A stretch of 37,107 nt of DNA. It comes from an uncultured Bacteroidales bacterium. GTDB taxonomy: Bacteria > Bacteroidota > Bacteroidia > Bacteroidales > Muribaculaceae. Positions 2,107 to 28,092 of this stretch are shown piece after piece (position 1 is the first letter of the stretch; each line of letters opens with the position of its first letter). A program made the translations under genes and the position numbers. The notes under the pieces were generated by a model. That model was not told where the DNA came from, searched no databases, and worked only from the letters and a program-made list of their open reading frames with translations. The DNA is taken from contig CADAFP010000018.1 of NCBI GenBank assembly GCA_902787185.1, positions 1-37,107 of the forward strand. The letters are read 5' to 3'.

Positions 2107-3363
2107 ATGCGGGTATTAATCGTAAATACTGCCGAGAGGACGGGAGGAGCGGCGATTGCCGCCAACCGCCTGCTGCATGCCTTGAACCACAATGGTGTGG
2201 CGGCGAGGATGCTTGTGCGCGACCGCAAGACCGACGCCAGCGAGGTGGTGAACATTCCCCCGTCGTGGCGCCTGAAGGCCAAGTTCCTGTGGGAGCGCGG
2301 CATCATCTGGCTCGCCAACGGACTGAGCAAAAAGGGCATTTTCCAGGTGGATATTGCCAATACCGGCACCGATATCACCAGGATGCCCGAGTTCCAGCAG
2401 GCCGACGTCATCCACCTGCACTGGGTCAACCAGGGATTCCTGTCGCTGGGCAACCTGGAGCGCATCCTGGCCAGTGGCAAGCCCGTGGTGGTGACGCTGC
2501 ACGACCAGTGGTATTTCACAGGCATCTGCCACTACTCGAGCGACTGCGAGAAATATCGCACCCAGTGCGAACACTGCCCAATGCTCAAGGGCCATGTCAT
2601 GGACCTGGCACAACGCGTGTTTGACCGCAAACAGGCGATGTATGAGGGACGCAACCTGACCTTTGTGGGCTGCAGCCGCTGGATGGCCGACATGGCACGC
2701 CAGAGCCGCCTGACGCAAGGCCATACCGTCACCAATATCCCCAATGCCATCGACGCCGACGTCTTCAAGCCTATCGATAAGGTCGCGGCACGCCAACGCC
2801 ACCATCTGCCGGCCGATAAAAAGCTGATTCTGTTCGGTGCCCAACGCATCACCGACGAGCGAAAGGGCTTCCGCTTCCTTACCGAGGCGTGCGAGCACAT
2901 CGCCATGCACCACCCCACCCTGCCCAAGCAACTGGGGGTCGTCGTGCTGGGTGGTGACGCCCAAAGCGTCAAGGAGGCGTTGCCGTTACCCGTCTATACG
3001 GTCAACTATTTGAGCAACGAGAAAGAGATTGCCGAACTCTATAATGCCGCCGACCTGTTCGTCACCCCCTCACTGCAGGACAACCTGCCCAACACCATCG
3101 TCGAGGCCATGGCGTGCGGCACGCCCTGTGTGGGCTTTAACGTGGGCGGCATTCCCGAGATGATTCATCACCAGCAGGACGGTTATGTGGCCGATTATTG
3201 CGACAGCCTGGACTTTGCACAGGGCATCGCCTGGTGCCTCAACGAGCAACGCCAAGCCGCCTTGGGTGCAGCAGCCCGAGCCACCGCCCTCGCCACCTAC
3301 GGCGAGACAGCCGTGGCCCAACGCTACCAAGCCATCTACCAGCAAGCCCTCACTAATCTCTAA
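2107..3363 (+). CDS. GT-B fold glycosyltransferase (GT4-like)
   Basis: 418 residues from the ATG at 2107. A TTG start at 2086 is in frame but overlaps the repeat and promoter, and MRVLIVNT is the natural first beta strand of a GT-B fold. The N-terminal acceptor domain carries TGGAAIAANRLLHAL and HLHWVNQGF. The C-terminal donor domain carries ITDERKGFRFL and the nucleotide-sugar signature PSLQDNLPNTIVEAMACG followed by PCVGFNVGGIPEMI, with the conserved Glu of the EX7E type (GT4 family). It probably transfers a sugar from a nucleotide donor to a cell-surface glycan on the cytoplasmic side; acceptor and sugar cannot be read from sequence. No other polysaccharide genes adjoin. The last residues (TNL) and the TAA stop are encoded by a heptamer array starting at 3353. 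Confidence 0.9.
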   Translation: MRVLIVNTAERTGGAAIAANRLLHALNHNGVAARMLVRDRKTDASEVVNIPPSWRLKAKFLWERGIIWLANGLSKKGIFQVDIANTGTDITRMPEFQQADVIHLHWVNQGFLSLGNLERILASGKPVVVTLHDQWYFTGICHYSSDCEKYRTQCEHCPMLKGHVMDLAQRVFDRKQAMYEGRNLTFVGCSRWMADMARQSRLTQGHTVTNIPNAIDADVFKPIDKVAARQRHHLPADKKLILFGAQRITDERKGFRFLTEACEHIAMHHPTLPKQLGVVVLGGDAQSVKEALPLPVYTVNYLSNEKEIAELYNAADLFVTPSLQDNLPNTIVEAMACGTPCVGFNVGGIPEMIHHQQDGYVADYCDSLDFAQGIAWCLNEQRQAALGAAARATALATYGETAVAQRYQAIYQQALTNL

Positions 3364-3380
3364 TCACTAATCACTAATCA
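3353..3380. repeat. Heptamer array R1 (CTAATCA)
   Basis: Four consecutive 7-mers: CTAATCT once, then CTAATCA three times. The array begins inside the glycosyltransferase reading frame and supplies its TAA stop (3361-3363). Confidence 0.85.
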
Positions 3381-3413
3381 AAAAAAGATGCCGCAATCGC
3401 GGCACCTTTTTTT
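3381..3413. terminator. Bidirectional intrinsic terminator
   Basis: TGCCGC (3389-3394) pairs with GCGGCA (3399-3404) around AATC. A run of A precedes the stem and a run of T (3407-3413) follows it, so it can stop both the plus-strand glycosyltransferase transcript and the minus-strand phosphatase operon. Confidence 0.9.
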
Positions 3414-3414
3414 C

Positions 3415-4734
3415 TCACACCTTCCAGTCGATGACGGTCTGGAGTTTTTTGTCGTAGTAGCGTCGCAGGTCACTCCAGCGGTAATAGGGGCCGTTGACGG
3501 GCTTGACGGGCAACAATGCTTCATGCTCGTTGAGCAGGACCTTGACCAGGATGTCGTCGGGGGAATTACCCACCGAGCCCACGGGGCGGTAGAATACCAT
3601 CTGGATGTTGCAGGCCTTGGGGATGGTGTTGTAGTCCTGCCAATGCTCGTGAAGTTCGTCAAGGTTCTCACAGCTGTAGTTGACGCTGTCCAGTTCCATG
3701 AGGCAGGCCAGCGGCAGCACACAGGTCTCGTGACCAAAGCGCAGCGACGCGCCATGTTCACCTGTTGCTATGGCCGCGTCGGCCTTCTCGATCATGTCAC
3801 GCAGCAACGCCCGCTCGATAAAGGGCATACGGTTGCCGTTCTGCGGTGCATTGGCCCAATGGATGTACCAATAGATGTTCTTGAGTCGCCACAGTTCAAA
3901 AATCTCGCTGTTACTGAAGTAGTGGTACAGGTTGATTTCATCAAAGAAGTTGTGGCCCTGCAACGATCCTGCCACATCAAACACGTCACGCATCAACTGG
4001 CGACCATTCAGGTTGGCGGCAGCCCATGCGGTGTCGTTGACCAGCTGAGCGATGAAGCGTTTGGGGTCCAAATGCTTGTCATACATCTCGTTGGAGATGT
4101 GGTCCACACTCTTGCGCAGGTCGTTGGCCAAGGTGTCCTCGCCGTAGCCCCATCCCATGTAGTACATGTCGTGGTAGCTGGCATCGGTGGTGATGCGCAA
4201 GTCGGGGTTGAGTGAGCGCAGGCGCATCGTCTCGTTCTGCATCGACAGGATGCAGCGGATGATGACCGTCGAGCGGGCATCGACGCGGGCATTGCCGGCA
4301 AACACCTCGGGGAAGTTGTCGAACATGCGCTGCGCGATTTCCTGATGCTGCACGGCACCCTCGTCGCTAAGGTCGCCAGCACGATTCTTGGACGTCTCAT
4401 ACACCATGGTCAATTGTCGGCGCAACAGTTCGCCTTGCAGGTTGAGCATTCCCGCCTCTTTGGCCTTGGCGAGTTCCTTGCAGGGGCGCTCGTAGTATCT
4501 GGCATTGGTCAGCCAGCGGCTGCCATGTCGGCCATAGTGGTCGATATAGAACGGCTCATAGCCCTCGGGGGCAGCAGTCAATACCGGCACTTTCACATCG
4601 GTGCCATAGGGGTAGGCATAGTGGTTGCTTGCCGAGCGGTCAAAGTTACTGATGACCTGCTTGCGCGGACTCTGGGCGCTCATGGTCATGCCGACAAGCG
4701 CTACCATAATCAAATATAAAGTGATACGTTTCAT
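3415..4734 (-). CDS. Secreted histidine acid phosphatase, phytase/MINPP-like (copy 2)
   Basis: 439 residues with an N-terminal signal peptide (LYLIMVALVGMTMSAQS). Histidine phosphatase superfamily, branch 2: the phosphate-accepting motif RHGSRW is at residues 69-74, a further conserved Arg region ARSTVIIRCILSM at 154-166, and the proton-donor segment FGHET at 334-338. A His-Glu-Thr donor resembles the HAE(T) of MINPP-type enzymes rather than the HD of classical acid phosphatases. Family members remove phosphate from inositol phosphates or other phosphomonoesters in the periplasm or on the surface; the substrate here is inferred. It lies 93 nt downstream of a clear paralog (4828-6120) in the same direction, probably as the second gene of an operon, with heptamer array R2 in the gap, and ends at a bidirectional terminator. 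Confidence 0.88.
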   Translation of the reverse strand: MKRITLYLIMVALVGMTMSAQSPRKQVISNFDRSASNHYAYPYGTDVKVPVLTAAPEGYEPFYIDHYGRHGSRWLTNARYYERPCKELAKAKEAGMLNLQGELLRRQLTMVYETSKNRAGDLSDEGAVQHQEIAQRMFDNFPEVFAGNARVDARSTVIIRCILSMQNETMRLRSLNPDLRITTDASYHDMYYMGWGYGEDTLANDLRKSVDHISNEMYDKHLDPKRFIAQLVNDTAWAAANLNGRQLMRDVFDVAGSLQGHNFFDEINLYHYFSNSEIFELWRLKNIYWYIHWANAPQNGNRMPFIERALLRDMIEKADAAIATGEHGASLRFGHETCVLPLACLMELDSVNYSCENLDELHEHWQDYNTIPKACNIQMVFYRPVGSVGNSPDDILVKVLLNEHEALLPVKPVNGPYYRWSDLRRYYDKKLQTVIDWKV

Positions 4735-4742
4735 TTTATTTC

Positions 4743-4823
4743 AGTTTCTAGTCCTTAGTCCCTAGTTTCTAGTTGGAATCCGCCAACTATTCACTATTCA
4801 CTGTTAACTGTTAACTTCTAACT
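4743..4823. repeat. Heptamer array R2 with central hairpin
   Basis: Left array: TTCTAGT (4746-4752), CCTTAGT, CCCTAGT and TTCTAGT (ends 4773). Centre: AGTTGG (4771-4776) pairing with CCAACT (4783-4788). Right array: ATTCACT twice, GTTAACT twice and TCTAACT (4789-4823), in opposite sense to the left array. Bases 4743-4788, read on the minus strand, match 23483-23528 at 45 of 46 positions. The array fills the gap between the two phosphatase genes. Confidence 0.88.
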
Positions 4824-4827
4824 CCTT

Positions 4828-6120: not shown

Positions 6121-6144
6121 ATTATTTAGTTTCGTGTTATTTAG

Positions 6145-6193
6145 TTTCTAGTCCTTAGTTTCTAGTCCTTAGTTTCTAGTACCTAGTTTGTAG
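6145..6193. repeat. Heptamer array R3
   Basis: Seven exact 7-mers in phase: TTTCTAG, TCCTTAG, TTTCTAG, TCCTTAG, TTTCTAG, TACCTAG, TTTGTAG. On the minus strand these are the AGAAACT and AAGGACT units of arrays R2 and R5. The array runs directly into the 35-bp GC-rich repeat at 6185-6219 and lies in the 5' leader of the phosphatase operon. Confidence 0.88.
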
Positions 6194-6219
6194 GGCCTCG
6201 CCTTGGCGTGGCCGGTCGG
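6185..6219. repeat. GC-rich 35-bp palindromic repeat, copy 1
   Basis: The core GCCTCGCCTTGGCGTGGC is an imperfect palindrome centred on CGCC-TT-GGCG. The segment recurs at 9347-9381 with two mismatches. A further small stem, CGCGG (6222-6226) with CCGCG (6231-6235), follows in this copy only. Confidence 0.8.
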
Positions 6220-6254
6220 AACGCGGAAACCCGCGCCCCAAGTGTTACCATGCG

Positions 6255-6263
6255 GCAAAGATA
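6255..6263 (-). promoter_or_regulatory. -7 box for the phosphatase operon
   Basis: On the minus strand this reads TATCTTTGC, matching TAnnTTTG. No convincing -33 element is seen at the expected distance, where the terminator stem of the upstream LRR gene lies. The matching position near 9433-9441 reads TATCTTTCC and is probably inactive. Confidence 0.45.
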
Positions 6264-6311
6264 CTAAAAATTCAAGTTTCCAGGGTGAAAACTCCTCTGG
6301 AAACTTGAATT
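6264..6311 (-). terminator. Terminator of the first BspA-like gene
   Basis: A perfect 15-bp stem: AATTCAAGTTTCCAG (6269-6283) pairs with CTGGAAACTTGAATT (6297-6311), loop of 13 nt, followed on the minus strand by a short T run. An identical stem ends the second BspA-like gene at 9442-9489. Confidence 0.85.
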
Positions 6312-6354
6312 GTATAAAGGGATGGGAGTCCCTCACCGACAGATCATCTATGGG

Positions 6355-9249
6355 TTAGTTGCCCAAAATGATGTCGATGATGGCGGTCACATCACCGATG
6401 CCGATGACGCCGTCACCGTCAACGTCGGCGACGGGATAAGCACTAGCGGAGGCGTTACCCGACAGAATCAAGTCGATGAGTGCAGTCACATCGCCAATGG
6501 CCACGAGACCGTCGCCATCCAGGTCACCGAGAATCAACAGGCCCGTGAAGGCGACATTATCCACAGCGAAGTAGTCGCCCTCGGGGTTAACGCTGTAGTC
6601 CTTACTGTAACGCCACTCCAGCAAGTGAGTGCCTGCGCTCAGCTGGGCGGTATAGGTCTCCCAATCATTCTGGCGTTGGCCGTAGCTGAACTTCTGCACC
6701 CCGTCAATCGAGAAGATGCAACGGTCATAAGATGACCCCTCGCCCCAAGCCTTGAACTCAAACGAAACGCTGCCGCCGCTGCCCACCGTGACTGTGGCAG
6801 TCAACGTCGAATTGCTTGAGGTAATGCCCTTGTTTCCAGAGATGGCGTACACGCGATTGTCATCTACAATATTGGTCCACGGATAATTATCCGTGGATCT
6901 GAACTTGACAGTGCCACTACCCGCGTTGAGCGCATAGTCCAATGAGGGATTTATCGTGGTGAAGAGGCCCCAATTCTCATCACCTCGATAGGACTGGATT
7001 GAGGCTTCGGGCACAAAGAGGGTGAATTCCGAGTAAGTGCCGCTGCCGCCAAAGGCCTCTTCCTCCAGTGTGGGCGGGACGGGCGCCAGGCAGGTCAGGC
7101 TCTTGAGGTTGGGGTTTGACATCACTGCCCAAGAGCGAATATAAGCCGTCGTCTCAGGAAGCGTCAGACTGGTTAAGGATGGGCATGACACGAAGGCAAG
7201 GAATCCGATATGTGTCACCCGATATGTTTGACCGTCGTATTGCACTGTGCTGGGAATCACCACGTCTCCACTATAGAACTCCTGGTGGTCACCATTATAG
7301 CTAAAGTCCCTAATCGTGACAGTAACCGTGTGATTGCCTCCTATCCTATAGGCGATGCCATTATACAGGAAGTCATAATCACGAATATACATTTGTGCGA
7401 AGTCTTTCCATCCATCTGTCTGAGCGTAAAGGTCAGACCCTTGTATCGGCACATAGAGAATGGCGTTGCTGTAGGTTGATGCACTAAATGATTCAGTCGA
7501 ATATAATGTGGGAGGCGTGGTCGCCCTGCAGTTGACGCTTGTCAGGGCAGTGCAGCCGCGAAACGCCCAAGAGCCTATTGTCGTCACATTGCTGGGGATA
7601 ATCACACTCGTCAGATTGACGGAATTTAAGAAAGCTGCAGCACCGATGGATGTAACCGTATAAGTCTTGCCACCATAGGTCACACGGTCAGGAATCACCA
7701 CGTTGCCACTGTAACTGTTGTAGTTTTCGTCCTTGTAGGTCACCTCCACGGCTCTTGTACTCTTGATCTTGTAATAAATGCCATCGACTTCAAAGTCATA
7801 GATTCCCGTGACATGGGTGAACCGCTTCCACCCGAAAGCAGCCTGATAAGCACTCTTGCTGGCATTGGGGACGTAGAGGTAGGCATTACTGTAAACCTCA
7901 TCATCAAACATTTCATTAGCTAATGAGGGCGGTGTGGTTGCCAAGCAGGTCACAGTTCTCAAAGCAGGACATTCCAGGAATGCATTCTGCCAGATTTCAG
8001 TCACTCCGCTGCCGATGGTTAAATCAGTCAAGTCTGTGCATCCCCTGAATGCTAAAGAGCCTATGCTGGTCACCGAGTTGGGAATCATCACACTTGTCAG
8101 GCCAGAATTCATAAATGCTGAATTTCCTATGGTGGCCACGGTCCCGGGAATCGTCAAATTCGTCAAGCTATAGCAAGAAGCGAATAAATGGTCACCAATA
8201 GCAGTTAACGAATTGGGAAGTGTCACACTCGTCAAATCATAGCAGTGATCAAACGCATAACCACCTATAGAGGTCACCGAATTGGGGATGGTCACACTCG
8301 TCAGACCATAACAGCGCGAGAACGCTTCGTCACCTATGGCTGTAACCTGATAGGTCTTTCCACCAAATGGGACACTACTTGGAATGGACAAACTGCCGCT
8401 GAATCCATCAACGACACCATACACTTCGACGGTATTGCTGCCCGTGATGACAGTATTGTTGCCGTTGATTCTGTAATAAAGGTCGTTATACTTGAATGAG
8501 TAAGGCAACTCCTGAATGTTGGTAAAATTTCCCCACCAGTCGGCAGACCGATAGTCTCCCGAACAGCCTCTGGGCACATAGAGCGTAGCACGGTTATACG
8601 TATCTTCGCTAAACGGATAAATGCTGTTTTCATAGGAAGGCAGGAATACGGGAGGGGTTTTAGCAAGACAGGTCAAACTCGTCAAGGCGGGGCATTCAAC
8701 GAACGCATAGTCACCTATACTCGTTACCGAGCTACCGATAGTCAAACTCTCTAGATTCACACAACCATGAAATGCATACATACCAATGGTTTTCACCGAG
8801 TCGGGGATTATTAGGCTGGTGAATGAAACATACTGAAATGCACCTTCGCCAATAGAAGTTACCGAATTCGGGATGGTAATAGATGTCATGCGATTACAAT
8901 CATGGAACGAGGCGTCACCAATAGTGGTCACAGTTGATGGTATCGTCACACTCTTTATAAAGCTGGAATGGAACGCACAGTCACCAATAGCAGTCACTTG
9001 ATAACTGGTGCCGTTATATGGCACGCTGCTGGGGATTATCACATCTTCAATGCCACTATAACTACCTTGGTTGTAAACACCTGACGAAGGATTATACATT
9101 CCATAGGTCACCTCAACGGTCTTGTTCGTTGAACTGGTGATATTGTAATAGAGGACGCCTGATTTAAAATCGTAGGCTTTGGCCCCGAGGGCACACGACA
9201 GGGCCGCCACAAGGGCGAATAGCCTAAAAAGTAGAAATTTCCTTTTCAT
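6355..9249 (-). CDS. BspA-like leucine-rich-repeat surface protein with C-terminal dockerin-like module
   Basis: 964 residues. Signal peptide LLFRLFALVAALSCALGAKA. The body (about 30-780) consists of treponemal/BspA-type LRRs (LRR_5, PF13306) with the repeating pattern IPNSVTSIGEGAF, arranged in blocks that each close with a conserved TCLAxTPP...LYVP...Y segment and restart with a FxxNGIxYxI...V strand. From about 790 to 900 there is a different, beta-rich segment (SGGSVSFEFKAWGEGSSYD) resembling a jelly-roll. The last 60 residues hold two Asp-rich loops (LDGDGL and VDGDGV), each followed by IGDVTALID or IGDVTAIID, a dockerin type I-like pair. BspA proteins are surface adhesins binding host matrix or bacteria. 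The gene has its own promoter and terminator and is a tandem copy of the next gene. Confidence 0.9.
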   Translation of the reverse strand: MKRKFLLFRLFALVAALSCALGAKAYDFKSGVLYYNITSSTNKTVEVTYGMYNPSSGVYNQGSYSGIEDVIIPSSVPYNGTSYQVTAIGDCAFHSSFIKSVTIPSTVTTIGDASFHDCNRMTSITIPNSVTSIGEGAFQYVSFTSLIIPDSVKTIGMYAFHGCVNLESLTIGSSVTSIGDYAFVECPALTSLTCLAKTPPVFLPSYENSIYPFSEDTYNRATLYVPRGCSGDYRSADWWGNFTNIQELPYSFKYNDLYYRINGNNTVITGSNTVEVYGVVDGFSGSLSIPSSVPFGGKTYQVTAIGDEAFSRCYGLTSVTIPNSVTSIGGYAFDHCYDLTSVTLPNSLTAIGDHLFASCYSLTNLTIPGTVATIGNSAFMNSGLTSVMIPNSVTSIGSLAFRGCTDLTDLTIGSGVTEIWQNAFLECPALRTVTCLATTPPSLANEMFDDEVYSNAYLYVPNASKSAYQAAFGWKRFTHVTGIYDFEVDGIYYKIKSTRAVEVTYKDENYNSYSGNVVIPDRVTYGGKTYTVTSIGAAAFLNSVNLTSVIIPSNVTTIGSWAFRGCTALTSVNCRATTPPTLYSTESFSASTYSNAILYVPIQGSDLYAQTDGWKDFAQMYIRDYDFLYNGIAYRIGGNHTVTVTIRDFSYNGDHQEFYSGDVVIPSTVQYDGQTYRVTHIGFLAFVSCPSLTSLTLPETTAYIRSWAVMSNPNLKSLTCLAPVPPTLEEEAFGGSGTYSEFTLFVPEASIQSYRGDENWGLFTTINPSLDYALNAGSGTVKFRSTDNYPWTNIVDDNRVYAISGNKGITSSNSTLTATVTVGSGGSVSFEFKAWGEGSSYDRCIFSIDGVQKFSYGQRQNDWETYTAQLSAGTHLLEWRYSKDYSVNPEGDYFAVDNVAFTGLLILGDLDGDGLVAIGDVTALIDLILSGNASASAYPVADVDGDGVIGIGDVTAIIDIILGN

Positions 9250-9296
9250 AAGCGATAGTTTTTTAGTTTAGATAATTATGATTAACAACGATTGGG

Positions 9297-9329
9297 GCAA
9301 ATATAGGGATTTATTTGCAAAATAACAAA
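9297..9329 (-). promoter_or_regulatory. Promoter of the first BspA-like gene
   Basis: Read on the minus strand, TTTG (9326-9329) is followed after 20 nt by TATATTTGC (9297-9305). The predicted leader is about 40 nt. The sequence is nearly identical to the promoter of the upstream paralog at 14723-14754. Confidence 0.8.
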
Positions 9330-9346
9330 TAATTTGACAGTTTTTC

Positions 9347-9381: not shown

Positions 9382-9441
9382 GAGGGCTGTGTGTCATAAG
9401 TCAACTATATTAGCATAACCGCCCGTTAGGCGGGAAAGATA

Positions 9442-9489
9442 CTAAAAATTCAAGTTTCCAGGGTGAAAACTCCTCTGGAAACTTGAATT
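9442..9489 (-). terminator. Terminator of the second BspA-like gene
   Basis: A 15-bp perfect stem, 9447-9461 pairing with 9475-9489, with a T run on the minus strand; identical in stem and loop to 6264-6311. Confidence 0.85.
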
Positions 9490-9529
9490 GTATAAAGGGA
9501 TGAGAAACCTTCGCCGACAGATCTATGGG

Positions 9530-12500
9530 TTAGTTGCCCAGAATGCTGTCGATGATAGCGGTCACGTCGGCAATACCCACCACGCCATCGCCGTTGAAGT
9601 CGGCGACAGGATTATAATCACTATTGCCGCTGAGAATGCTGTCAATGATGGTGGTCACGTCGGCAATACCCAGGATACCGTCACCGTTCACGTCACCGGG
9701 AATGGCATTAGCGATAATCCGCGAGAAGTTGCTCCAGACGTAGGCTTCCTGATAATCGCTTACTGACTCGGCAGGAACTTTGAGGATACCGCTAGTATAG
9801 GTGTTTTGTTCAAACGTCTCTTCGCCATAGAGCGTAGGCGGAGTGATGGCTAAGCAAGTCACGTCCCTTAAATTGTAACACTCTATAAATGCATAATCAC
9901 CAATTGAGGTCACACTGCTCGGAATGGTCACACTCGCCAAATATTGACATTCTCCAAATGCATTATTACCGATAGTGGTTACCGTGTTAGGTATCTCCAC
10001 GCTTAACATGCCAACACAACTATAGAATGCATCATCTCCGATGCGGGTTATCTGGTAAGTCGTGCCCATAAACGTCACTTCCTCGGGTATGACCACATCG
10101 CCACTGATTATCCGATAGTCATAAGTAGCAATCTCGACGGCATCATTTTCCAAGAATAGATAGCCAAGGCCTTCCACCTCGAAGTCGAAGGCAAGCTGTT
10201 GGATGCTGCCGAAGTGGCTCCACCTTTCTTCAGCCTGATAGGCGGCTAAGGAGTGGTAGGGCACATAGAGGGTGGCATTTGCTTCATCCCAATCATAAGA
10301 GAAGCCATGCAGTAAAGGAGGAGTGAGGGCTAAGCAGGTTACCATCCTTAAATCATAGTTACGGTCAAAAGCAAACATGCCGATTTCAACCAATCCGCTA
10401 CCGAGGATTATTTCCGTGAATGAGCACCCTCCAAAGGCATTTTCGCCGATGGTGGTCACCGAGTTGGGGACAATCAGAGTTCCCTGGAGATGATAGCTTG
10501 CGAAAGCCTCATCATCGATGGTTATCAACGAGTTGGGGAGGGTCACCGACCTAAACGAGGAATCGCAACGGTAGAAAGCACGGTAGCCGATGCGAGTCAC
10601 TGTTTCAGGCATGCTCACGCTCGAGAGTCCGGTGCTTGCCCTGAAGGCATAGTCGCCGATGGCAGTTACCAGGTAGGTCGCGCCGTCGTTGCTTACCGAG
10701 GCGGGGATGGTGACATCGCCGCTGTAAGTGTTCCCATAGGTGCCATAGGTCACCTCAACAGAGAAGTCGCTTGTGATATTGTAATAGATACCGTCCACGA
10801 CGAAGTCATAGATGGGCATGGCGACCGTCTTGTTAAAGCGGTTCCATCCGCCTGTGGTTTCATAGGCTCTCAACGCATTGGCGGGCACGGTGAGGGTGGC
10901 ATTGGCATAGGTGGTTTGGTCAAACACATTGTAGTTGTAGTTTTCCCAAGCCAAGTTTGGCGGTGTGGTGGCTAGACAGGTCACACTCGTCAAGGCGGAA
11001 CAATAACCAAATGCATAATTACCAATTGTGGTCACACCGCTGCCGATAGTCACGCTCTCCAACTGCCAATTCTCTTCAAAGGCACTAAGACCTATGGATT
11101 CTACCGAATTGGGGATGGTCACGCTCGTCAATGGGGTTAAATAGAATGCATATTTACCAATTGATGTCACCGAATTTCCAATGGTCACACTTGACAAATC
11201 AGATTCACCAAAGGCATTATCACCGATGTAAATCACCGTGTTGGGAATCACCGCGCCTGTCAAGGTCATGTCATAGAACGCAAATTCTCCGATTCCCGTC
11301 ACGCTATAGCTCCCGGCAAAGTCGCCAGCAGAGTCGCCGATATAGTAGTTGTACACTACCTCGGGGATAATGACTTCGCCAGAGAGTTCATGATCACAAT
11401 AACTAACCTCAATGGTATTCATACTTGTAATTTTGTAGCCGAGACCATTGACCATGAAGTCGTAGGTAAGTTGTCGGATGCTGCCGAACCGGGCCCAATC
11501 TTCGTTAGCTTGATAGGCGGCTAAGGAGTGGTAGGGCACATAGAGGGTGACATTTTCTTCAAGCAAATCATAAGAGAAGCCAGGCAGCAAAGGAGGAGTG
11601 AGGGCTAAGCAGGTTACCCTCCTCAAATAACCGTTACGGTCAAAAGCAAACATGCCGATTTCAACCAATCCGCTACCGAGGGTTATTTCCGTGAAAGAGC
11701 ACTCTCCAAAGGCGTTTTCGCCGATGGTGGTCACCGAGTTGGGGACAATCAGAGTGCCCTTGAGCCAAGTGCTTGCAAAAGCCTCATCATCGATGATTAT
11801 CAACGAGTTGGGGAGGGTTACCGACCTAAACGAGGAGTCGCAACGGTAGAAGGCGCGGTAGCCGATGCGGGTCACCGTTTCAGGCATGCTCACGCTCGTG
11901 AGTCCGGTGCTTGACCTGAAGGCATAGTCGCCAATGGCGGTTACCATGTAGGTCGCGCCGCCGTTGCTTACCGAGGCGGGGATGGTGACATCGCCGCTGT
12001 AAGTGTTCCCATAGGTGCCATAGGTCACCTCAACGGTGTTGTTGGACAAAATCCTGTAATAGATGCCGTCCACGACGAAGTCATCATTGGGCAAGGCAGT
12101 CATCTTGTTAAAGCGGTTCCATCCGAGTGAGTTTTCATAGGCACTCAACGCGTTGTCGGGCACGGTGAGGGTGGCATTGGCGTAGGTGGTTTGGTCAAAC
12201 ACATTGATGTTTGCCAACGTTGGTGGCCTTGAAGCCAAACAGGTCACACTCGTCAAGGCTGAGCAACCCCTAAACGCAGCTTCACCAATGGTTTTCACCG
12301 AGTTAGGGATAGTTATACTTGTCAAATTAGAACAGCTATTGAAGGCCCCGCCGCAGATTGTTGTCAACGAATTACCCAAATTCACACTCATCAGGCCCGA
12401 ACATTCGCTGAAAGCATCATACCCTATTTCAGTAACCGAATTGGGAATGGTGACTGATGTCAGTCCAGTACATCTCCTAAATGCATCCAGGCCAATGGTT

Positions 12501-14674: not shown

Positions 14675-14722
14675 AAGCGATAGTTTTTTTAGTTTAGATA
14701 ATTATGATTAACAACGATTGCG

Positions 14723-14754
14723 GCAAATATAGGGATTTTTTACAAAATAACAAA
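14723..14754 (-). promoter_or_regulatory. Promoter of the second BspA-like gene
   Basis: On the minus strand TTTG (14751-14754) precedes TATATTTGC (14723-14731) by 19 nt; the leader is about 40 nt. The leader is the same as that of the 964-residue paralog apart from a longer T run and single changes. Confidence 0.8.
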
Positions 14755-14789
14755 TAAATTGACAGTTTTTCAGCATATAGAGTGAGGAA

Positions 14790-14937
14790 TTAGAAATTAG
14801 GAGTTAGGAGTTAGGAGTTAAAGGCATCCGCACTCCTGTTAAAAAAGGAATGCGGATGCCCACTAATGCCTAATGCCTAAAACCTAAAACCTAATGCCTA
14901 AAACCTAAAGCCTAAAGCAAAGCCTAAAGCCTAATGC
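14790..14937. repeat. Heptamer array R4 with 14-bp central hairpin
   Basis: Left array: TTAGAAA once then TTAGGAG three times (14790-14817). Centre: GGCATCCGCACTCC (14823-14836) pairs with GGAATGCGGATGCC (14847-14860) with one mismatch. Right array (14863-14937): ten CTAATGC, CTAAAAC or CTAAAGC units, with one 5-nt slip at 14919-14923. The final unit supplies the stop codon and last His codon of the 960-residue protein gene. The hairpin may also serve as its transcript end; its T run is short. Confidence 0.9.
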
Positions 14938-21522: not shown

Positions 21523-21561
21523 TTATAAACCATGACATCATTATTTAAAGACTTAGAAATT

Positions 21562-22047: not shown

Positions 22048-22083
22048 TTTGCGTCGCTTGGGCTACCCCCCAGGCGGCGCAAA
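22048..22083 (+). ncRNA. Strong RNA-type hairpin in the gap before sbcD
   Basis: Bases 22048-22062 pair with 22069-22083 over 15 bp around the loop CTACCC. The only two non-Watson-Crick pairs are G-U when read as plus-strand RNA (U54-G77 and U58-G73, numbered from 22000); on the minus strand they would be A-C mismatches, so the plus strand is the likely transcript. A second stem, CGAGGC-ACA-GCCTCG, follows at 22093-22107. Neither stem is followed by a T run. It may be a 3' element of the preceding operon or a relic of a repeat; whether it is an independent RNA is unknown. Confidence 0.4.
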
Positions 22084-22172
22084 CTGTTTAACCGAGGCAC
22101 AGCCTCGATCTACTTAACAATGCTGAAAGGAAATAAACTGAGTGCTTTTTAAAGGAGAGAATGGATGAAAGA

Positions 22173-22204
22173 TTTGGAAGATTGGAGAAAAAATTGTATT
22201 TTTG
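22173..22204 (+). promoter_or_regulatory. Promoter of sbcD
   Basis: TTTG (22173-22176), 20 nt spacer, TATTTTTG (22197-22204): a consensus Bacteroidetes promoter. The leader to the ATG at 22239 is about 28 nt. Confidence 0.8.
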
Positions 22205-22238
22205 AGCCTAAAATTTTCTAACTACCCTATCGATAGCC

Positions 22239-23432
22239 ATGTTTAAATTCATCCATACGAGTGACTGGCACTTGGGCCAGAATTTCTACGGATATGACCG
22301 TAGCGAGGAGCAACAGGACTTCCTCAGGCAACTTGCCACAATCGTGAGCGAGCAGCAGCCTGACGCCCTGCTGGTGAGCGGCGATGTTTATCACACGGCG
22401 GCACCGTCGAGCAGCACGGTGAGGCTGTATGTGAGCGGGATGCTCGACATCCATGAGGCTTGCCCCGACATGTCCATCATCGTGATTGCGGGTAACCACG
22501 ACAGCGCGGCGCGCCTCGACAGCGACAGCCTGCTGTGGGAACGTGCGGGAGTGACTGTGCTGGGCGGCATCGCCCGCAATAGCGACGGCACGGCCTGCCT
22601 CGACCACCACTTGATTACGGTCAAGAATCGGGGTATCGTCGCCGCGGTGCCTTTCTGCTATCCCGGTGGCTTCCCCTTGACATCACCCGATGCGGTGGAC
22701 CGGGCACAGCGCCAATCGGCATACTTCCAAGCACTGCTCGACCATGCCAATAGCCAAGACCCCGACGGGCTCCCTGTCGTGCTGATGGCCCACCTGGCCG
22801 TGAGCGGTAGCGACTACACGGGGCACGACAGTTCGGTGGCCATGGAGAGTGTGGGTTTGGACGAATTGGGCTCGGGGTATGACTATGCCGCATTGGGACA
22901 TATCCACCGGCCACAGCAACTGAGCGTGAACGCACGTTACTGCGGCACACCGCTGGCAGTGAGCTTTGATGAGCAATGCGAGCACTCGGTGAGCATTGTC
23001 GAAATTGACGCACATGGCAATGAGCCACGAGTTCACAGCCATATCATCAAGAACATCAAGCCGCTCCACACCATCCCAGCCAAGAAACCCGCCGACTTTG
23101 ACACGGTGATGGAAAAACTCCAAGCCATGAGCGACACCCAACACGCATACATCAGGCTGAATGTCCTGGCCGACGGCCTGTTGCCGCATGATGCCCAGAT
23201 ACGCGCCGCCCAAGTGCTGGAAGAGAAAAATTGCCGCTACTGCTGCATCAAGAAGACATTAGCCACCTCTGCCACAGCCCACAGCACCCGCATGAGCCTT
23301 GAGCAACTGAGTGAAAAAAGTCCCATCGAGGTGGCCGAACAGTTCTTCCTCGACAAGACCGGTAACACGATGACCGACCTGCAACGGGAAATGTTCAACG
23401 AAGCCTATCGGCAGGCAACCGTTAATAGTTAG
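22239..23432 (+). CDS. sbcD: Exonuclease SbcCD, nuclease subunit D
   Basis: 397 residues. Metallophosphoesterase fold of the Mre11/SbcD family with all metal-binding motifs: HTSDWHLG (residues 6-13), VSGDVYHTAAPSS, IVIAGNHDS and ALGHIHRPQ. The C-terminal part (from about 270) is the SbcD capping domain. With SbcC it forms the Mre11-Rad50-type complex that opens and degrades DNA hairpins, palindromes and blocked ends in an ATP-dependent way. A good promoter lies just upstream. sbcD and sbcC usually overlap or nearly touch; here a 141-nt repeat array separates them. The TAG stop (23430-23432) is the first TAG of the TTAGAAG unit, so the array has taken over the end of the gene. Confidence 0.97.
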   Translation: MFKFIHTSDWHLGQNFYGYDRSEEQQDFLRQLATIVSEQQPDALLVSGDVYHTAAPSSSTVRLYVSGMLDIHEACPDMSIIVIAGNHDSAARLDSDSLLWERAGVTVLGGIARNSDGTACLDHHLITVKNRGIVAAVPFCYPGGFPLTSPDAVDRAQRQSAYFQALLDHANSQDPDGLPVVLMAHLAVSGSDYTGHDSSVAMESVGLDELGSGYDYAALGHIHRPQQLSVNARYCGTPLAVSFDEQCEHSVSIVEIDAHGNEPRVHSHIIKNIKPLHTIPAKKPADFDTVMEKLQAMSDTQHAYIRLNVLADGLLPHDAQIRAAQVLEEKNCRYCCIKKTLATSATAHSTRMSLEQLSEKSPIEVAEQFFLDKTGNTMTDLQREMFNEAYRQATVNS

Positions 23433-23573
23433 AAGTTAGGAGTTAGAAATTAGGAGTTAGAAATTAGGAGTTAGGAGTTAGAAGTTGGCGGATGCCAACT
23501 AGAAACTAGGGACTAAGGACTAGAAACTAACTAAGGACTAAGGACTAAAAACTAAAAACTAAAAACTAAGAAC
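23429..23573. repeat. Heptamer array R5 with central hairpin, between sbcD and sbcC
   Basis: Left array: eight units of TTAGAAG, TTAGGAG or TTAGAAA (23429-23484). Centre: AGTTGGC-GGAT-GCCAACT (23483-23500). Right array: AGAAACT, AGGGACT, AAGGACT and AGAAACT (23501-23528), a 4-nt AACT partial unit, then AAGGACT twice, AAAAACT three times and AAGAAC, which touches the sbcC ATG at 23574. The segment 23483-23528 matches the minus strand of 4743-4788 at 45 of 46 positions. Confidence 0.9.
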
Positions 23574-26500
23574 ATGAGACTGAAGAGACTACATATCAGC
23601 AATATCGCTTCGATACAAGAGGCTGAAATCAATTTTGACGCTTCGCCGTTGAGCGATGAGCGTCTGTTCCTCATCACGGGCGACACCGGCACCGGCAAGT
23701 CAACCATCATCGACTGCCTGTGTCTGGCGCTGTATGGCACAACGCCACGCATGAAAGCTGCCCGTCGAGCCGACTATGAGAACAAGCGTCCCGAGGCGAC
23801 CAACCAGGAGAACTTGAACACCAATGACCCGCGCCAACTGCTGCGCCGCGGTAGCGGCAGTGCCGACGTCAGCCTGGCGTTTGACGACAATGAGGGAACC
23901 CCTTATATCGCCACGTGGCACGTACACCGCTCCCACAAGCGCCCAACAGGAGCCCTGCAAGACGTGGAGCGCAACCTGCGCACCGAAGACGGCGTCATGC
24001 CAGCGGTCTTTATGACCAAGAAGACCGAAATTGACGGTTTTATCACCAACCTCATCGGATTGGACGTAAACCAGTTTTTCCGCACCGTGGTTCTCGCCCA
24101 GGGCAAGTTTGCCGAGTTTCTTGAGTCCAATGAGAACGACAAATCGTTGCTCCTCGAGAAAATGATGGGCCTTGACATCTATTCACAGGTGAGCATGAAG
24201 ATCCACGAGATGTGTGGTGAGAAGAAGCGTGACCGTGATGCCCTGCGTGAGGCACTCAACGACATCAGTCTGCTGCTCCCTGAGGAGAAAACGGCCATCG
24301 AGGAGGAAATCGTGCAATATAAGCAGGAACAAACAACCGTGCGCCAGCGGCATGAACAGGCCAAGGCGATGCGCGACTGGCTGGACGAGAAGCAACGCAT
24401 CGAGGAGGATCTGAAAAAGCAAAACGACCTCCTTGAAGGGGTACAACAGCAGATGCGGGAACCCGCCTACGTGGAGCGTGCCCAGCTGGTCAAAGAGTGG
24501 GATGCCACCACCGAGGCCCGCGCCGACTTCAAGCGGCACCAACATGCCCAGGCCCAAATCACGGCCCTGGAAGCACAGCAACCCGCCCTCCAGCGGGAAT
24601 ATGACCGCCTGTGCGCCGCCCTGCAATCCACGATTAAAGCCCTTGACGATAAGCGGACCAGCCTCAAGGATGTCAAAGCCTTAATTGAGCAGGACAGCCA
24701 AAATAGCGCCATCTATGCCGCCATCGGCGAAATCAAGACGCTGATGTCTCATCGGCAGAAGGCATTGGACAACATCAAAACCTATACCGAAGCCCTGACG
24801 CGGGAGCAGAGCAAGTTGCCACAAGCCGAGGAAACCGTACGTCTGACGATAGAAGCCAACAACGCCCAGGAAGGGAAGGTCAGAGAAACACAGCAACGGC
24901 TGGATAGCCTGAACATCGGCACCGTCAACACGCGCAAGGACAACCTGAATGATGCCAAGGCCGCGGTGAGCGCCCTCAAGACGCAACTGGAGGCCATCGC
25001 CAAGCAGAATTCCCGCATCGACGAGATGAGGCAGGAACTCAAACGCCAACAGGATCTGGTGGCAACCGACGCCGCCACCATCGACCTCAAGCGCGAGATG
25101 GCCGAGAAGGCCCGAGAGAATCTCACCCGTCAAAAGGACTGGGATGCCCTGCTCATCCAGGCCCATAACAGCCTGCATGCGGGCGACACCTGTCCCGTGT
25201 GCGGCCATGTCATCGACACGCTACTCTCCCCCAAGTCCAAGAGTGCCCTGGATGAACTGCAGGCACAGTGCCAGCAAGCCGATAAGGCACTGAATGAGAC
25301 CGAAACCCGCATCAGTGCCGGCAAGAAACTCATTTCCCATCAGGAAATTTTGTTGCAAAAGGCCGTTGACGAACTCGATCACATGGTCAACCTCAAGGAC
25401 ACGCAACAGTCGGCCACCCGCCTGCTGCTGGAAAAATGCGGCAAGAGCACCGACGAAATTACCGAGGCACATCAGGCCGAAAGCCTCATCATTGCCATCA
25501 ATGATGAGGTAGAACAGTTGAACGGCATCATCGCCCAATCCCAGGAACTGACAACCGAACTGCAACAGCAACAACGCCAGCTCAAGGCCACCGAGACAGC
25601 GCATAACAAAGCCGTCATTGCCTTGAACAACGTCAAAAACAGCATCGAGAAGCAAAACATGGCCATCGATGCCAGCAAGACTCAACGCGATGCGGTGACG
25701 CGTGACTTGGACAACCTGCTTGCCGAAGACGGCTGGCATGACATGAGCGCCGAGGCATTGACAGCACTCGTCAACGATATCGAACGCCGCGCAAGGCAGT
25801 ACCGACAGCAAACCGAAGCAGCTGGGCAGCTGGAACGCGCCATCGACATGTTGCAGGTTTCCATCCCCACCATGGAGGAAGCGAAGCGCAATCTGCAAGG
25901 TAGCTTGAAAGACAATAGCGGTGACGGCTGCGGTGACATTCCCGAGGGGCTGGAGAGTCTGTGGCACACGTTGGAAAAGAAATACACGCAGTGGCACACC
26001 TCGCTCTCCCGTGAGCGTCAAGACGACAGCGAGGCCCAAGAAAAGGTCAACGCCTATCTGCAGTCACAACAGGCGGTGTCGCTTGACCGCCTGCAAAACT
26101 TGTGTGCCCACGAGCCAGAGGAAATCAGTGCCATCAGGTTGGCACAGCAGCAACTTGTGGAAAAGGCCAACAACCTGCAGGGCGAGACCACCTCGCTCGG
26201 AAAGCGCAAAGCGGCCCATCAAGCCCGGAGGCCGGAATTTGCCGTGGAAGACCGCGAACAATTAGAGGGAATCATCGCCACCGCGGGCAAGCGCGACGAG
26301 GAACTGAACGAGGAAATCTCCAAACGGTCGGCACGCCTCACACTCGATGCCGAGAACCACAAACTCGCCGGCAAGAAAAAGGAAATGCTCGACCAGGCCG
26401 AGCAACTTTATCTCCGCTGGTCACAACTCAACGAGATGCTGGGCAGCCATGACGGCTCGAAATTCAGGAGAATCGCCTTGAGCTACATCCTCGAGGAACT

Positions 26501-26918
26501 GCTCGCCATTGCCAACGGCTACTTGAGCCATTTCAATGACCGCTATGAGTTGGAAGCCCAGCCTGGCACCCTCACCATCCTGGTGCGCGACTTGCTGCAG
26601 GGCGACAGAACGGCGGTAACGACGCTGTCGGGCGGCGAGAGTTTCATGGTGTCGCTGGCTCTTGCACTGGCGTTATCGAGCATGACGGGCAAGGTGTTCA
26701 CCGTGGACACCATATTCATCGACGAAGGATTTGGCACGCTGAGCGCCAACTACTTGGACAAAGTCATGGAAACGCTCAACCACCTGTATGACATGGGCGG
26801 GCGACGTGTGGGTATCATCAGTCACGTCGAGGCGCTGAAGGAGCGCATCACCGCTCAAATCCACGTTCAGCGCGACAAGGGGAACAACACCGTGAGCCAT
26901 GTCGTGGTGAGCGGTTAG
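23574..26918 (+). CDS. sbcC: Exonuclease SbcCD, ATPase subunit C (Rad50-like)
   Basis: 1114 residues. SMC/Rad50-type ATPase: Walker A GDTGTGKST at residues 36-44, two long coiled coils (about 190-530 and 560-900) joined by a zinc hook CPVCGH at 540-545, ABC signature LSGGE at about 1018-1022 and Walker B TIFIDEGFGTLS soon after. It pairs with SbcD to process DNA hairpins and double-strand ends; the hook dimerises two SbcC molecules. The length is usual for the family. There is no Shine-Dalgarno sequence: the bases up to the ATG are AAAAACT heptamers, so translation probably depends on an A-rich leader (inference). The TAG stop (26916-26918) lies in the first unit of array R6. Confidence 0.97.
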   Translation: MRLKRLHISNIASIQEAEINFDASPLSDERLFLITGDTGTGKSTIIDCLCLALYGTTPRMKAARRADYENKRPEATNQENLNTNDPRQLLRRGSGSADVSLAFDDNEGTPYIATWHVHRSHKRPTGALQDVERNLRTEDGVMPAVFMTKKTEIDGFITNLIGLDVNQFFRTVVLAQGKFAEFLESNENDKSLLLEKMMGLDIYSQVSMKIHEMCGEKKRDRDALREALNDISLLLPEEKTAIEEEIVQYKQEQTTVRQRHEQAKAMRDWLDEKQRIEEDLKKQNDLLEGVQQQMREPAYVERAQLVKEWDATTEARADFKRHQHAQAQITALEAQQPALQREYDRLCAALQSTIKALDDKRTSLKDVKALIEQDSQNSAIYAAIGEIKTLMSHRQKALDNIKTYTEALTREQSKLPQAEETVRLTIEANNAQEGKVRETQQRLDSLNIGTVNTRKDNLNDAKAAVSALKTQLEAIAKQNSRIDEMRQELKRQQDLVATDAATIDLKREMAEKARENLTRQKDWDALLIQAHNSLHAGDTCPVCGHVIDTLLSPKSKSALDELQAQCQQADKALNETETRISAGKKLISHQEILLQKAVDELDHMVNLKDTQQSATRLLLEKCGKSTDEITEAHQAESLIIAINDEVEQLNGIIAQSQELTTELQQQQRQLKATETAHNKAVIALNNVKNSIEKQNMAIDASKTQRDAVTRDLDNLLAEDGWHDMSAEALTALVNDIERRARQYRQQTEAAGQLERAIDMLQVSIPTMEEAKRNLQGSLKDNSGDGCGDIPEGLESLWHTLEKKYTQWHTSLSRERQDDSEAQEKVNAYLQSQQAVSLDRLQNLCAHEPEEISAIRLAQQQLVEKANNLQGETTSLGKRKAAHQARRPEFAVEDREQLEGIIATAGKRDEELNEEISKRSARLTLDAENHKLAGKKKEMLDQAEQLYLRWSQLNEMLGSHDGSKFRRIALSYILEELLAIANGYLSHFNDRYELEAQPGTLTILVRDLLQGDRTAVTTLSGGESFMVSLALALALSSMTGKVFTVDTIFIDEGFGTLSANYLDKVMETLNHLYDMGGRRVGIISHVEALKERITAQIHVQRDKGNNTVSHVVVSG

Positions 26919-27005
26919 GAGTTAGGAGTTAGAAGTTAGAAGTTAGAAGTTAGGAGTTAGAAGTTAGGAGTTAGAAGTTAGGAGTTAGAAGTTAGGGGTT
27001 AGGAG
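26915..27005. repeat. Heptamer array R6, thirteen perfect-phase units
   Basis: Thirteen consecutive 7-mers without a slip, of forms TTAGGAG, TTAGAAG and one TTAGGGG. It starts with the sbcC stop codon and ends at base 27005, and the next three bases (27006-27008) are the stop codon of the convergent hydrolase gene. The gap is therefore repeat and nothing else, with no terminator between the convergent genes. Confidence 0.93.
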
Positions 27006-27986
27006 TTATTGGGGTGAAACTGCTGTGATTAGGGCGTGGAAATAGGCGATGGCATCATCGAGAGGCATGAAGCGGGACGCATCGGGCTGTCCCTTCAAGT
27101 GCTTGCGCACGGCCTCCTCGGGATGGAACTGCACACCCAAGGCAAAACGCTTGTCGGTGCGCTCAATCGCCTCAATAATGTTGATGCCGTCGGTCTCGGT
27201 CACGCCCGTCACCCGCAAGGGGGTTCCCGTCACGTCACCCACCACCTGATGGTGCCATGAGGGCACATTGTGGATGGTGTCGGTGCCTACGATGGCATAC
27301 AGCAATGAGTTGTGGTCGGTAACCGTCACGTCGTGGGGCGTGTAATAACGGTTGCCGTCGGCATCACGCTGCATGCGGTGCAGGTAATGATAGGACAGAC
27401 CCAAGCCCTCGTAGTAAGTCGTCAAATCCTGAATGAGCGGGGCACCCGACACGACTCCAAGCATCTGCATGCCACGGCACAGACCCAGCACCGGCACGTC
27501 GTGGTCGAGGCAATAGGCCATCGTCAAGTACTCCGACACGTCGCGGGTGGCATCAGCGCTATTGTCGCCCTCGATGCCATGCCACGTTTGGGGCACAGCA
27601 AACAGTGTGGAACTGATGTCGCCACCACCCAGAAAAACCACGGCCTGGACGTCAGCCATTAACTCGGCGGCATCGGTGCCATGGTAGGTGTCGCGCTTGA
27701 CAATATCGGCATATTGCTGGCGCAACACGCCCACCCCATTGACATATCGGGGGCACAGTGTCAAGCTATCGTACTCAAATCCCGCGGGACGCAACTGCGG
27801 CAAAATCACCGCCTCGCCCCCAGCCGCCTCGATGGAAAGGATAACGCGCTCATAGGCGGCATCGTTGGGTTGCCACGCAAGGCCCACGCGCACCTTCACA
27901 CCATCACCAGCCATTGCCGCGAGCGTAAAGCCCCAGGTCAACAGCACAATCACCCAATATTTCATCACTCTATTCCTCATCATCAT
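27006..27986 (-). CDS. Exported class I amidotransferase-like hydrolase (peptidase C26, PuuD-like)
   Basis: 326 residues from the first of three adjacent ATG codons. The core signal peptide is MKYWVIVLLTWGFTLAAMA, so the protein is periplasmic, unlike cytoplasmic E. coli PuuD. Class I glutamine-amidotransferase fold: GGGDISSTLF near 120 (oxyanion region), nucleophile elbow LGLCRGMQ with Cys170, and GVQFHPEEA with His288 and Glu290 completing the triad. Relatives hydrolyse gamma-glutamyl bonds (gamma-glutamyl-GABA, folate polyglutamates). It follows a P1-family aminopeptidase in the same direction 99 nt downstream, so the pair probably processes unusual peptides in the periplasm (inference). 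Array R7 fills the gap. Confidence 0.88.
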   Translation of the reverse strand: MMMRNRVMKYWVIVLLTWGFTLAAMAGDGVKVRVGLAWQPNDAAYERVILSIEAAGGEAVILPQLRPAGFEYDSLTLCPRYVNGVGVLRQQYADIVKRDTYHGTDAAELMADVQAVVFLGGGDISSTLFAVPQTWHGIEGDNSADATRDVSEYLTMAYCLDHDVPVLGLCRGMQMLGVVSGAPLIQDLTTYYEGLGLSYHYLHRMQRDADGNRYYTPHDVTVTDHNSLLYAIVGTDTIHNVPSWHHQVVGDVTGTPLRVTGVTETDGINIIEAIERTDKRFALGVQFHPEEAVRKHLKGQPDASRFMPLDDAIAYFHALITAVSPQ

Positions 27987-27996
27987 ATAACTAATG

Positions 27997-28092
27997 TTTT
28001 AGGCTTTAGGTTTTAGGCTTTAGGTTTTAGGACGCGGAGCCACCTAATGCCTAACTCCTAACGCCTAATGCCTAATGCCTAACACCTAATGC
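27997..28092. repeat. Heptamer array R7, two inverted arrays
   Basis: Left array: TTTTAGG and CTTTAGG alternating, five units (27997-28031). Spacer: 12 nt, GC-rich (28032-28043). Right array: CTAATGC, CTAACTC, CTAACGC, CTAATGC twice, CTAACAC, CTAATGC (28044-28092). The two halves are inverted relative to each other (TTAGG against CCTAA). The last unit encodes the final His codon and TAG stop of the P1 peptidase gene. Confidence 0.9.

Follow-up and report, generated by a model that had tools for sequence, protein, structure and literature searches.

Tandem arrays of 7-bp units fill many intergenic gaps in a 37,107-bp stretch of DNA from an uncultured Bacteroidales bacterium of the family Muribaculaceae (assembly GCA_902787185.1, contig CADAFP010000018.1; this whole stretch is hereafter the window), which raises the question of what kind of element these heptamers form and how it came to lie at so many gene borders. 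An earlier note, made from the sequence of the window alone, listed seven such gaps and treated the arrays as separate things. We find that many of them are instead the arms of oriented dyads, in which one array reads TTAG inward and its partner, on the other side of a short spacer, is of the reverse-complement type (CTAA), and that the polarity of this arrangement is nearly absolute within the genus. The feature is real and abundant, was first seen in pieces, and represents a known repeat class with an architecture rule that is new for this group. We favor, with a probability of roughly 0.45, the interpretation that the arrays belong to a single dispersed family of dyads, of the intergenic heptameric short tandemly repeated repetitive (STRR) sequence kind, whose members are copied, resized by slippage, and persist at gene borders. 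The pointing rule provides a testable handle on why seven-base repeats accumulate in bacteria of several phyla.

Heptamer arrays in the window and across the genome

Tandem Repeats Finder and a period-7 scorer recovered arrays in all seven gaps, at the positions originally given or a few bases off (Table 1). The 3,182 intergenic bases of the window contain nine period-7 segments, against a mean of 0.025 and a maximum of one in 200 dinucleotide shuffles; a chance origin of these arrays is excluded. A sample of 837,107 bp, about 26% of this genome (the source assembly comprises 3.22 Mb in 102 contigs and is about 81% complete), yields 80 segments at period 7 and 0 to 29 at each of the other periods from 4 to 13, with period 9 second at 29. 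Within a 437-kb sample, 90% of which is coding according to crude calls (gene calls in our scripts are longest open reading frame (ORF) guesses), 46 of 49 arrays lie mostly outside called genes. With regard to phase-variable simple sequence repeats, in which a change of length alters expression of a surface gene, the neighbors of the arrays include housekeeping as well as surface-type genes. These results support the earlier note as to a dispersed heptamer family, enriched in intergenic sequence and not tied to one type of gene; neither of the outcomes that would have refuted it, a lack of enrichment or absence outside the window, is observed.

Of the YTAR core put forward in that note, the existence is confirmed and the defining role is not. 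Four YTAR words at spacing 7 occur 218 times, against none in one shuffle, none at each of the spacings 5, 6, 8, and 10, and six at spacing 9; four strict CTAA words at spacing 7 give 469 matches versus 32 for the reversed pattern. Only 78 of 113 arrays, however, keep YTAR in at least 60% of their units, and YTAR is rejected as a universal core: the non-YTAR arrays use CACTGTT, AACTGTT, or ATCTATT words, so that the TTCACT-type units at 4785-4826 are not the lone exception they had seemed, and other Bacteroidota use AGT, GTGA, or GATG words. AGT does not qualify as a universal motif either; six consecutive AGTNNNN units are present in 192 of 395 Bacteroidota, but in many of these genomes the reversed control is at least as common. 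In our reading of the sequences, this genome appears to draw on a small set of motifs (CCTAANN, ACTARRR, TTAGRAG, MACTRTT, ATCTNTT, and ACTAATC), some of which are found also in other species of the genus, along with CTAACGT, TAGCNNN, and TGCATTA.

Period 7 is not foremost in every sample. There are no arrays in 144,533 bp of G012, G015 has more segments at period 9 (12) than at period 7 (10), and G197 has four at period 7 versus seven at period 18. A plasmid of Trichormus variabilis, with eight period-7 segments in 300 kb, adds little.

Inward-pointing dyads

In seven samples, 56 pairs of adjacent arrays are separated by no more than 60 bp. Nineteen of these are clearly opposite, and all 19 have the AG-type array on the left and the CT-type array on the right (two other pairs are of the same type, and in 35 at least one array is too mixed for its type to be assigned). 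By G-minus-C content, two-armed elements from five samples are G-first in 48 cases and C-first in three, one from G035 and two from G028. Of 61 genomes of the genus, 39 contain the order TTAGNNNTTAG-(3 to 33 bases)-CTAANNNCTAA, with 877 placements, 103 of them in this genome; the opposite, CTAA-first order is present in 5, with 11 placements at five places and none in this genome. Placements overlap and are not independent. Either order of an inverted pair would be equally palindromic, so palindromy alone does not explain the polarity. The composition of gene ends fails as a source, too: where gene ends are free of arrays, there is no excess of G past the stop codon (skew -0.077), and the polarity therefore belongs to the element.

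Often, the spacer is itself a hairpin that keeps the register of the arms, as in AGTTGGC-GGAT-GCCAACT, where two inverted heptamers enclose a 4-nt loop. Outside the arrays, GCGGATGCC, which is part of this core, is the commonest GC-rich intergenic 9-mer in the sample of this genome, and 18 of its 26 copies lie within 40 bp of an array; in G009 and G035, 12 of 14 copies are near arrays, and the samples of G012 and of G028, which has other cores, contain no intergenic copy. Without heptamers, GCGGATGCC occurs between other wordy repeats at L049:9850, 12821, and 13846-13918 and at L107:1316-1378 (with TTGTTTAA words and ACGAATTTCACGAATT words). The two arms of a dyad frequently carry different motifs. 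When arms were swapped in folding tests in this genus, the own arms did better in 11 of 18, 2 of 5, 0 of 6, and 3 of 6 cases, which does not support selection for well-paired arms here.

The same arrangement exists with other words. G376, a genome of another family, has the motif GTGAGNC/GTGAATA with a complementary right arm, and its own arms fold better than swapped ones in 11 of 13 cases. Among 296 Bacteroidota genomes, 37 contain GTGA-first dyads, with 256 placements, of which four genomes account for 207; the opposite, TCAC-first order is present in 4 of the 296, with one placement each. Some single placements, in either order, may be due to chance. Taken with the convergent pairs of Xanthomonas, as described in the available passages of PMC4692102, these dyads place the convergent arrangement beyond one phylum or one motif. 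At loci L217-L222 of G376, long GTGAG/GTGAATA dyads recur with a similar AAACTTAAACCC...TTTTC center; the one at L217:13512-13847 spans about 330 bp.

A near-absolute polarity for two motifs in one phylum, matching the Xanthomonas pairs, is a strong constraint on explanations. One of them can be set aside on the basis of the units themselves. G-quadruplex formation, as proposed for GGGNATC repeats, would fit the period and the convergent arrangement seen in Xanthomonas (same passages), but TTAGNNN, CAGTTAA, and ATCTATT units lack regularly recurring GGG tracts; the arrangement common to both groups therefore cannot rest on G-quadruplexes here, and a role for such structures is exceedingly improbable.

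Position relative to genes and terminators

Arrays lie at gene ends and, in gaps between co-directional genes, in a preferred orientation. In such gaps, arrays that follow a stop codon are G-rich on the sense strand in 74 cases versus 12, and those that precede a start codon are C-rich in 44 versus 10 (p = 1e-16). Arrays without a neighboring array keep this orientation (31 versus 8 after the stop and 12 versus 3 before the start; p = 2.5e-5), and single arrays in convergent and divergent gaps show no preference. These counts leave out arrays that have no clear G or C excess, lie inside called genes, or have no gene on either side, and set aside those about equally far from both genes. The array at 3350..3380 of the window is oriented contrary to the after-stop rule. 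The after-stop arrays number 126, and 52 of these extend across at least 3 bp of the stop codon or beyond, 34 are no more than 10 bp away, and 40 are farther; TAG stops are commoner at array-bearing genes (25 of 88 versus 73 of 486). Annotators of these genomes should be aware that repeats can make up C-termini and determine the lengths of gaps.

Of the 84 elements in this genome, 4 are not assigned to a class of gap; the others comprise 57 in the 301 co-directional gaps, 18 in the 84 convergent ones, and 5 in the 83 divergent ones. Divergent gaps are not avoided in G028 and G015, which have 0.42 and 0.21 elements per divergent gap, respectively. The elements do not have the makeup of intrinsic terminators (GC stem plus T-run): among gaps of 15-600 bp that contain arrays, a terminator-like site is present in 1 of 72, with 1 in the 14 convergent, 0 in the 54 co-directional, and 0 in the 4 divergent gaps. 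In co-directional gaps there is a tendency toward mutual exclusion, terminator-like sites being rarer in gaps with arrays (0 of 54) than in those without (23 of 254, p = 0.019); in convergent gaps, replacement of terminators is not supported (1 of 14 versus 10 of 65).

Stop codons and a possible border function

All three sense frames are closed in 106 of the 126 after-stop arrays, compared with a mean of 67.6 for column-permuted units, and none of 300 permutations reaches 106; on the antisense strand and before start codons, frame closure is likewise above its own controls. These tests used arrays chosen relative to called ORFs, which favors stop-bearing arrays. A test of 376 arrays without this filter, the AT-rich window control of which is mostly coding, ranks the set {TAA,TAG,TGA} first of 45 composition-matched triplet sets for closed frames. 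We read the stop-bearing units as the result of a filter by which arrays that would extend genes are lost; a function in closing frames is possible.

The elements might, on a more ambitious view, be functional gene borders, with hairpins in RNA or DNA that would halt transcription or translation between genes in both directions. Such a function would account for the placement at gene ends, for the co-directional orientation of paired and single arrays alike, for the scarcity of elements in the divergent gaps of this genome, for the mutual exclusion with terminator-like sites in co-directional gaps, for the closure of all frames, and for the folding of own arms in G376. Within this genus, however, own arms are not clearly better paired, terminator-like sites in convergent gaps are not clearly replaced, and single arrays in convergent and divergent gaps have no orientation preference. 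Divergent gaps in G028 and G015 are richer in elements than those of this genome, and presence varies between close species, down to the array-free sample of G012. We consider a dedicated border function unlikely.

Variation between relatives

Loci related to the window number 66 and come mostly from uncultured metagenome-assembled genomes labeled Muribaculaceae, Prevotellaceae, or Bacteroidales, many of them labeled also with a ruminant host, along with a few others, such as Robiginitalea. Orthologous gaps differ in presence or absence of arrays, in copy number, and by replacement of motifs. The gap between the Peptidase_S58 and Peptidase_C26 genes ranges from 6 to 257 bp across 25 sequences (the window and 24 relatives, after removal of duplicates and of rows without a readable gap); it holds GAGTTAG arrays in some and a TTTAGGC-type array in L082 and the window, and in many it consists of 6-30 bp without arrays. 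The nearest relatives, L080 and L081, have a shorter and a longer version of one array, respectively, and unit number also differs between L072 and L076. The gap tree is poorly resolved, with 8 of 22 inner branches firm and the central forks open, and does not polarize gain and loss. In the same gap, TCTAGA arrays with 4-base spacers (period 10) occur at L107:9137-9220 and at about 9128-9181 of L085.

The gap between sbcD and sbcC is 141 bp long and nearly all dyad in the window. Among the matches listed that flank it, at least 15 relatives have a stretch 134-139 bp shorter than here, which would leave about 2-7 bp. In G009, the dyad in this gap shares its left motif with that of the window but carries another motif, ACTGAAA, on the right.

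On a rival explanation, heptamers would arise by local slippage alone, with no dispersal, dyads being produced by hairpin-assisted strand switching and polarity by a bias of the replication machinery. Seven nucleotides is a favored slippage length, according to the passage of PMC4679880 that reports on Mrazek et al. 2007, and period 7 leads in several samples with unrelated motifs. A neutral mutation-plus-duplication simulation matches the variation among columns seen within single arrays here (1.25 versus 1.30 events in the quietest window, which is below the simulated mean in 16 of 40 arrays), so that conservation beyond neutral slippage is not supported in this genome, and in some relatives the array next to the S58 gene prolongs the AGGAAYAG end of the gene itself. 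Slippage alone, however, does not predict a core word and motifs common to several loci or arms of different motifs within one dyad, and it gives no reason for a single polarity; in the distant genomes G242, G195, and G467, moreover, the quietest columns show fewer events than simulated (1.45 versus 2.17, and below the simulated mean in 8 of 11 arrays). As the sole process, slippage seems to us unlikely.

Proposed mode of spread

On the interpretation that we favor, a single family of copied dyads, existing elements would spread within the genome by copying, as suggested by the shared core and by the element-free sites; such copying would explain both the one polarity and the core. Arms would grow and shrink by replication slippage in steps of 7 nt, and one arm could be replaced by another motif with its orientation unchanged. 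Persistence at gene borders would follow from the stop codon that most units carry: 7 equals 1 modulo 3, so three units would close three frames, and an array running into the end of a gene would cost it only a few C-terminal residues. No dedicated cellular function would be needed, and hairpin or termination effects could be by-products.

Several observations weigh against this interpretation. No dispersal enzyme or vehicle was found, with none of 10 Y1 transposase loci examined containing a heptamer array. Many arrays are single or have a different core, and dispersal as a unit does not cover all of them; the same polarity with another motif in distant families would be unexpected if merely inherited. 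As to stop codons, when the 11 sample groups are taken singly, the stop set leads in 5 and is second to sixth in the others; in this genome {TAG,TAA,AGT} comes ahead of it, and among the after-stop arrays of this genome the stop set is fourth. Arrays within a genome share motifs, and the permutation counts treat arrays as independent; with few independent motifs, the stop statistics are weaker than the counts suggest. Nor do stop codons explain the TTAG/CTAA polarity, because each orientation holds one.

As regards target-site duplications and terminal inverted repeats, the marks of miniature inverted-repeat transposable elements, no fixed ends were seen; the outer ends are variable arrays, and sites without the element appear as alignment gaps or are too diverged for a duplication to be read. 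Mobilization by a Y1 transposase of the kind associated with repetitive extragenic palindromic (REP) sequences (REP-associated tyrosine transposase, RAYT) would fit dispersed intergenic palindromes with a common core, and Y1_Tnp matches are present in 55 of 61 genomes of the genus, with four matches in this genome. In the 10 loci of 2.2-3.4 kb each, four from this genome, the transposase gene is not flanked by copies of the heptamer repeat, other GC-rich palindromes being found around it, and a Y1 gene is present also in G012, the sample of which is array-free; we reject this mechanism as very unlikely. At L243-L252, Y1 (RAYT-like) genes are flanked by short GC-rich palindromes, for example, CGTGGGTGTCAACCCACG, which is repeated in L243, and form ordinary-looking REP systems beside the heptamer family. 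To our knowledge, REP sequences and bacterial interspersed mosaic elements (BIMEs) have no tandem arms. The heptamer dyads resemble REP/BIME elements with RAYT (GTAG-tagged family, in the passages available of PMC3733652) in being dispersed intergenic palindromes, and differ from them in that the Y1 genes of this genome are flanked by other palindromes.

An analogy with eukaryotic telomere fusions suggests another route, in which heptamers would be added to 3' ends at intergenic breaks and the ends joined head-to-head, like (TTAGGG)n(CCCTAA)m. Healing of this kind would explain the polarity, the differing motifs of the arms, and the replacement of whole gaps up to the edge of a gene; however, no enzyme or template RNA was found and none was sought, and with the analogy as its only basis we regard it as highly improbable. 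More broadly, inward-pointing heptamer dyads could be a distinct and widespread class of gene-border element, with motif-unrelated versions across Bacteroidota and Xanthomonas, whose polarity is actively imposed, by directional extension and joining of ends or by selection for two-way, all-frame stop fences with a hairpin, rather than left by passive slippage, and whose period would be 7 because 7 equals 1 modulo 3, which would carry one stop codon through every frame in turn. We think this quite improbable. Whether a dyad arrives whole, whether it stops read-through, and what sets its direction are the questions raised by the polarity rule.

Relation to described heptamer repeats

Mazel reportedly described STRRs of Calothrix and Nostoc in 1990, and the comparison with cyanobacterial STRRs drawn in the earlier note is apt: the present arrays share with heptameric STRRs and long simple sequence repeats (LSSRs) tandem 7-bp units beyond chance, a dispersed intergenic position, and variation in unit number. 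That there is no described Bacteroidales equivalent, as the note had it, needs more care on account of Paludibacter, a genus of this order. In the available passages of PMC4679880 (MacGregor 2015), arrays of TAACTGA are reported from Beggiatoaceae, Cyanobacteria, and five Bacteroidetes, including Paludibacter, and the array-bearing gaps of Gramella forsetii and A. sublithincola also hold other heptamer repeats. These repeats resemble ours as intergenic 7-bp arrays near start codons, some of them over stops, and in the mixture of heptamers in Bacteroidetes; forward TAACTGA repeats, too, are said there to close all three frames. They consist of one strict unit, with 2-6 copies and one inverted set in BOGUAY and up to 43 copies elsewhere, unlike the degenerate units and regular oriented dyads described here. 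The Calothrix/Nostoc STRRs and heptanucleotide LSSRs (Mrazek 2007, via PMC4679880) are likewise heptameric intergenic tandem repeats, for which the citing passages mention no dyad or polarity rule.

The GGGAATC repeats of Xanthomonas and the GGGGA(C/T)T repeats of Nostoc also have 7-bp units with fixed and variable positions, dispersed and mostly intergenic, with the G-rich strand coding downstream and non-coding upstream of genes, and with repeats over stop codons (Rehm et al. 2015, PMC4692102, here and below in the passages available). Convergent pairs number 70 in Xcc and 75 in Xac and are few in Nostoc; in Xanthomonas, the G-rich strand of a pair reads away from the flanking gene, and divergent gaps are under-represented. 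By contrast, the elements described here have no G-tracts, several motifs per genome, arms that often differ, and a recurrent GC-rich core. In their available parts, both PMC4679880 and PMC4692102 leave the function of heptamer repeats unsolved. A literature search, with subscription papers mostly outside its scope, found no account of oriented heptamer dyads in Bacteroidota.

Features of the window

Table 1. Heptamer arrays and dyad parts in the window
Positions	Part	Units or sequence	Context
3350..3380	single CT-type array	TCACTAA	overlaps end of plus-strand gene 2086-3363; convergent gap
4743..4770	left arm	CTAGTCC/TTAGTCC, imperfect	
4771..4788	core	AGTTGGAATCCGCCAACT	hairpin-like, two inverted heptamers, judged from the sequence
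4789..4826	right arm	ACTATTC, ACTGTTA, then CTAACTC	
6141..6193	TAG-type array	TTAGTTTCTAGTCC (14-mer)	followed by GC-rich inverted repeat 6194-6213
14780..14820	left arm	GAGTTAG	
14823..14860	core	inverted repeat GGCATCCGCA ... TGCGGATGCC	
14863..14937	right arm	CCTAAAG/CCTAATG/CCTAAAA	
23421..23482	left arm	AGTTAGG/AGTTAGA/AATTAGG	crosses stop of SbcD-like gene 22239-23432
23483..23500	core	AGTTGGC-GGAT-GCCAACT	7-bp stem, 4-nt loop
23501..23573	right arm	ACTAAGG/ACTAGAA/ACTAAAA	ends at ATG of SbcC-like gene 23574-26918
26906..27008	single TAG-type array	GTTAGGA/GTTAGAA, 13.6 units	fills convergent gap
27996..28031	left arm	TTTTAGG/CTTTAGG	
28032..28042	spacer	ACGCGGAGCCA	
28043..28097	right arm	CCTAATG/CCTAACG/CCTAACT	crosses end of Peptidase_S58 gene (28086-29219, minus strand)

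The dyad at about 4743-4826 is an imperfect period-7 repeat, and no right arm was seen at the array at 6141..6193. The array at 26906..27008 crosses the SbcC-like stop (26918) and reaches the end of the Peptidase_C26 gene (27006-27986, minus strand). SbcD and SbcC are parts of a nuclease that cuts DNA hairpins, and it is the genes for the SbcD-like and SbcC-like proteins that the best dyad with a hairpin core, at 23421-23573, separates. A hairpin like that of an intrinsic terminator (GATGCCGCAATCGCGGCACC plus T-run), at 3380-3412, adjoins the array at 3350-3380, so an array and a terminator can coexist.

Two further sets of repeats lie outside the heptamer family. Near-duplicate stretches (9245-9345 with 14670-14770 and 6240-6310 with 9425-9500, one of which holds a TTCAAGTTTCC hairpin) are located at the ends of BspA-like leucine-rich repeat genes with dockerin-like ends (6355-9249 and 9530-14674), in what looks like a tandem duplication of a gene together with its flanks. 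Near-identical doubled 15-mers, TTACATCAATGTAAC, at 829-860 and 2053-2084, shortly upstream of the consecutive genes 901 and 2086, are likely a pair of operator-type palindromes.

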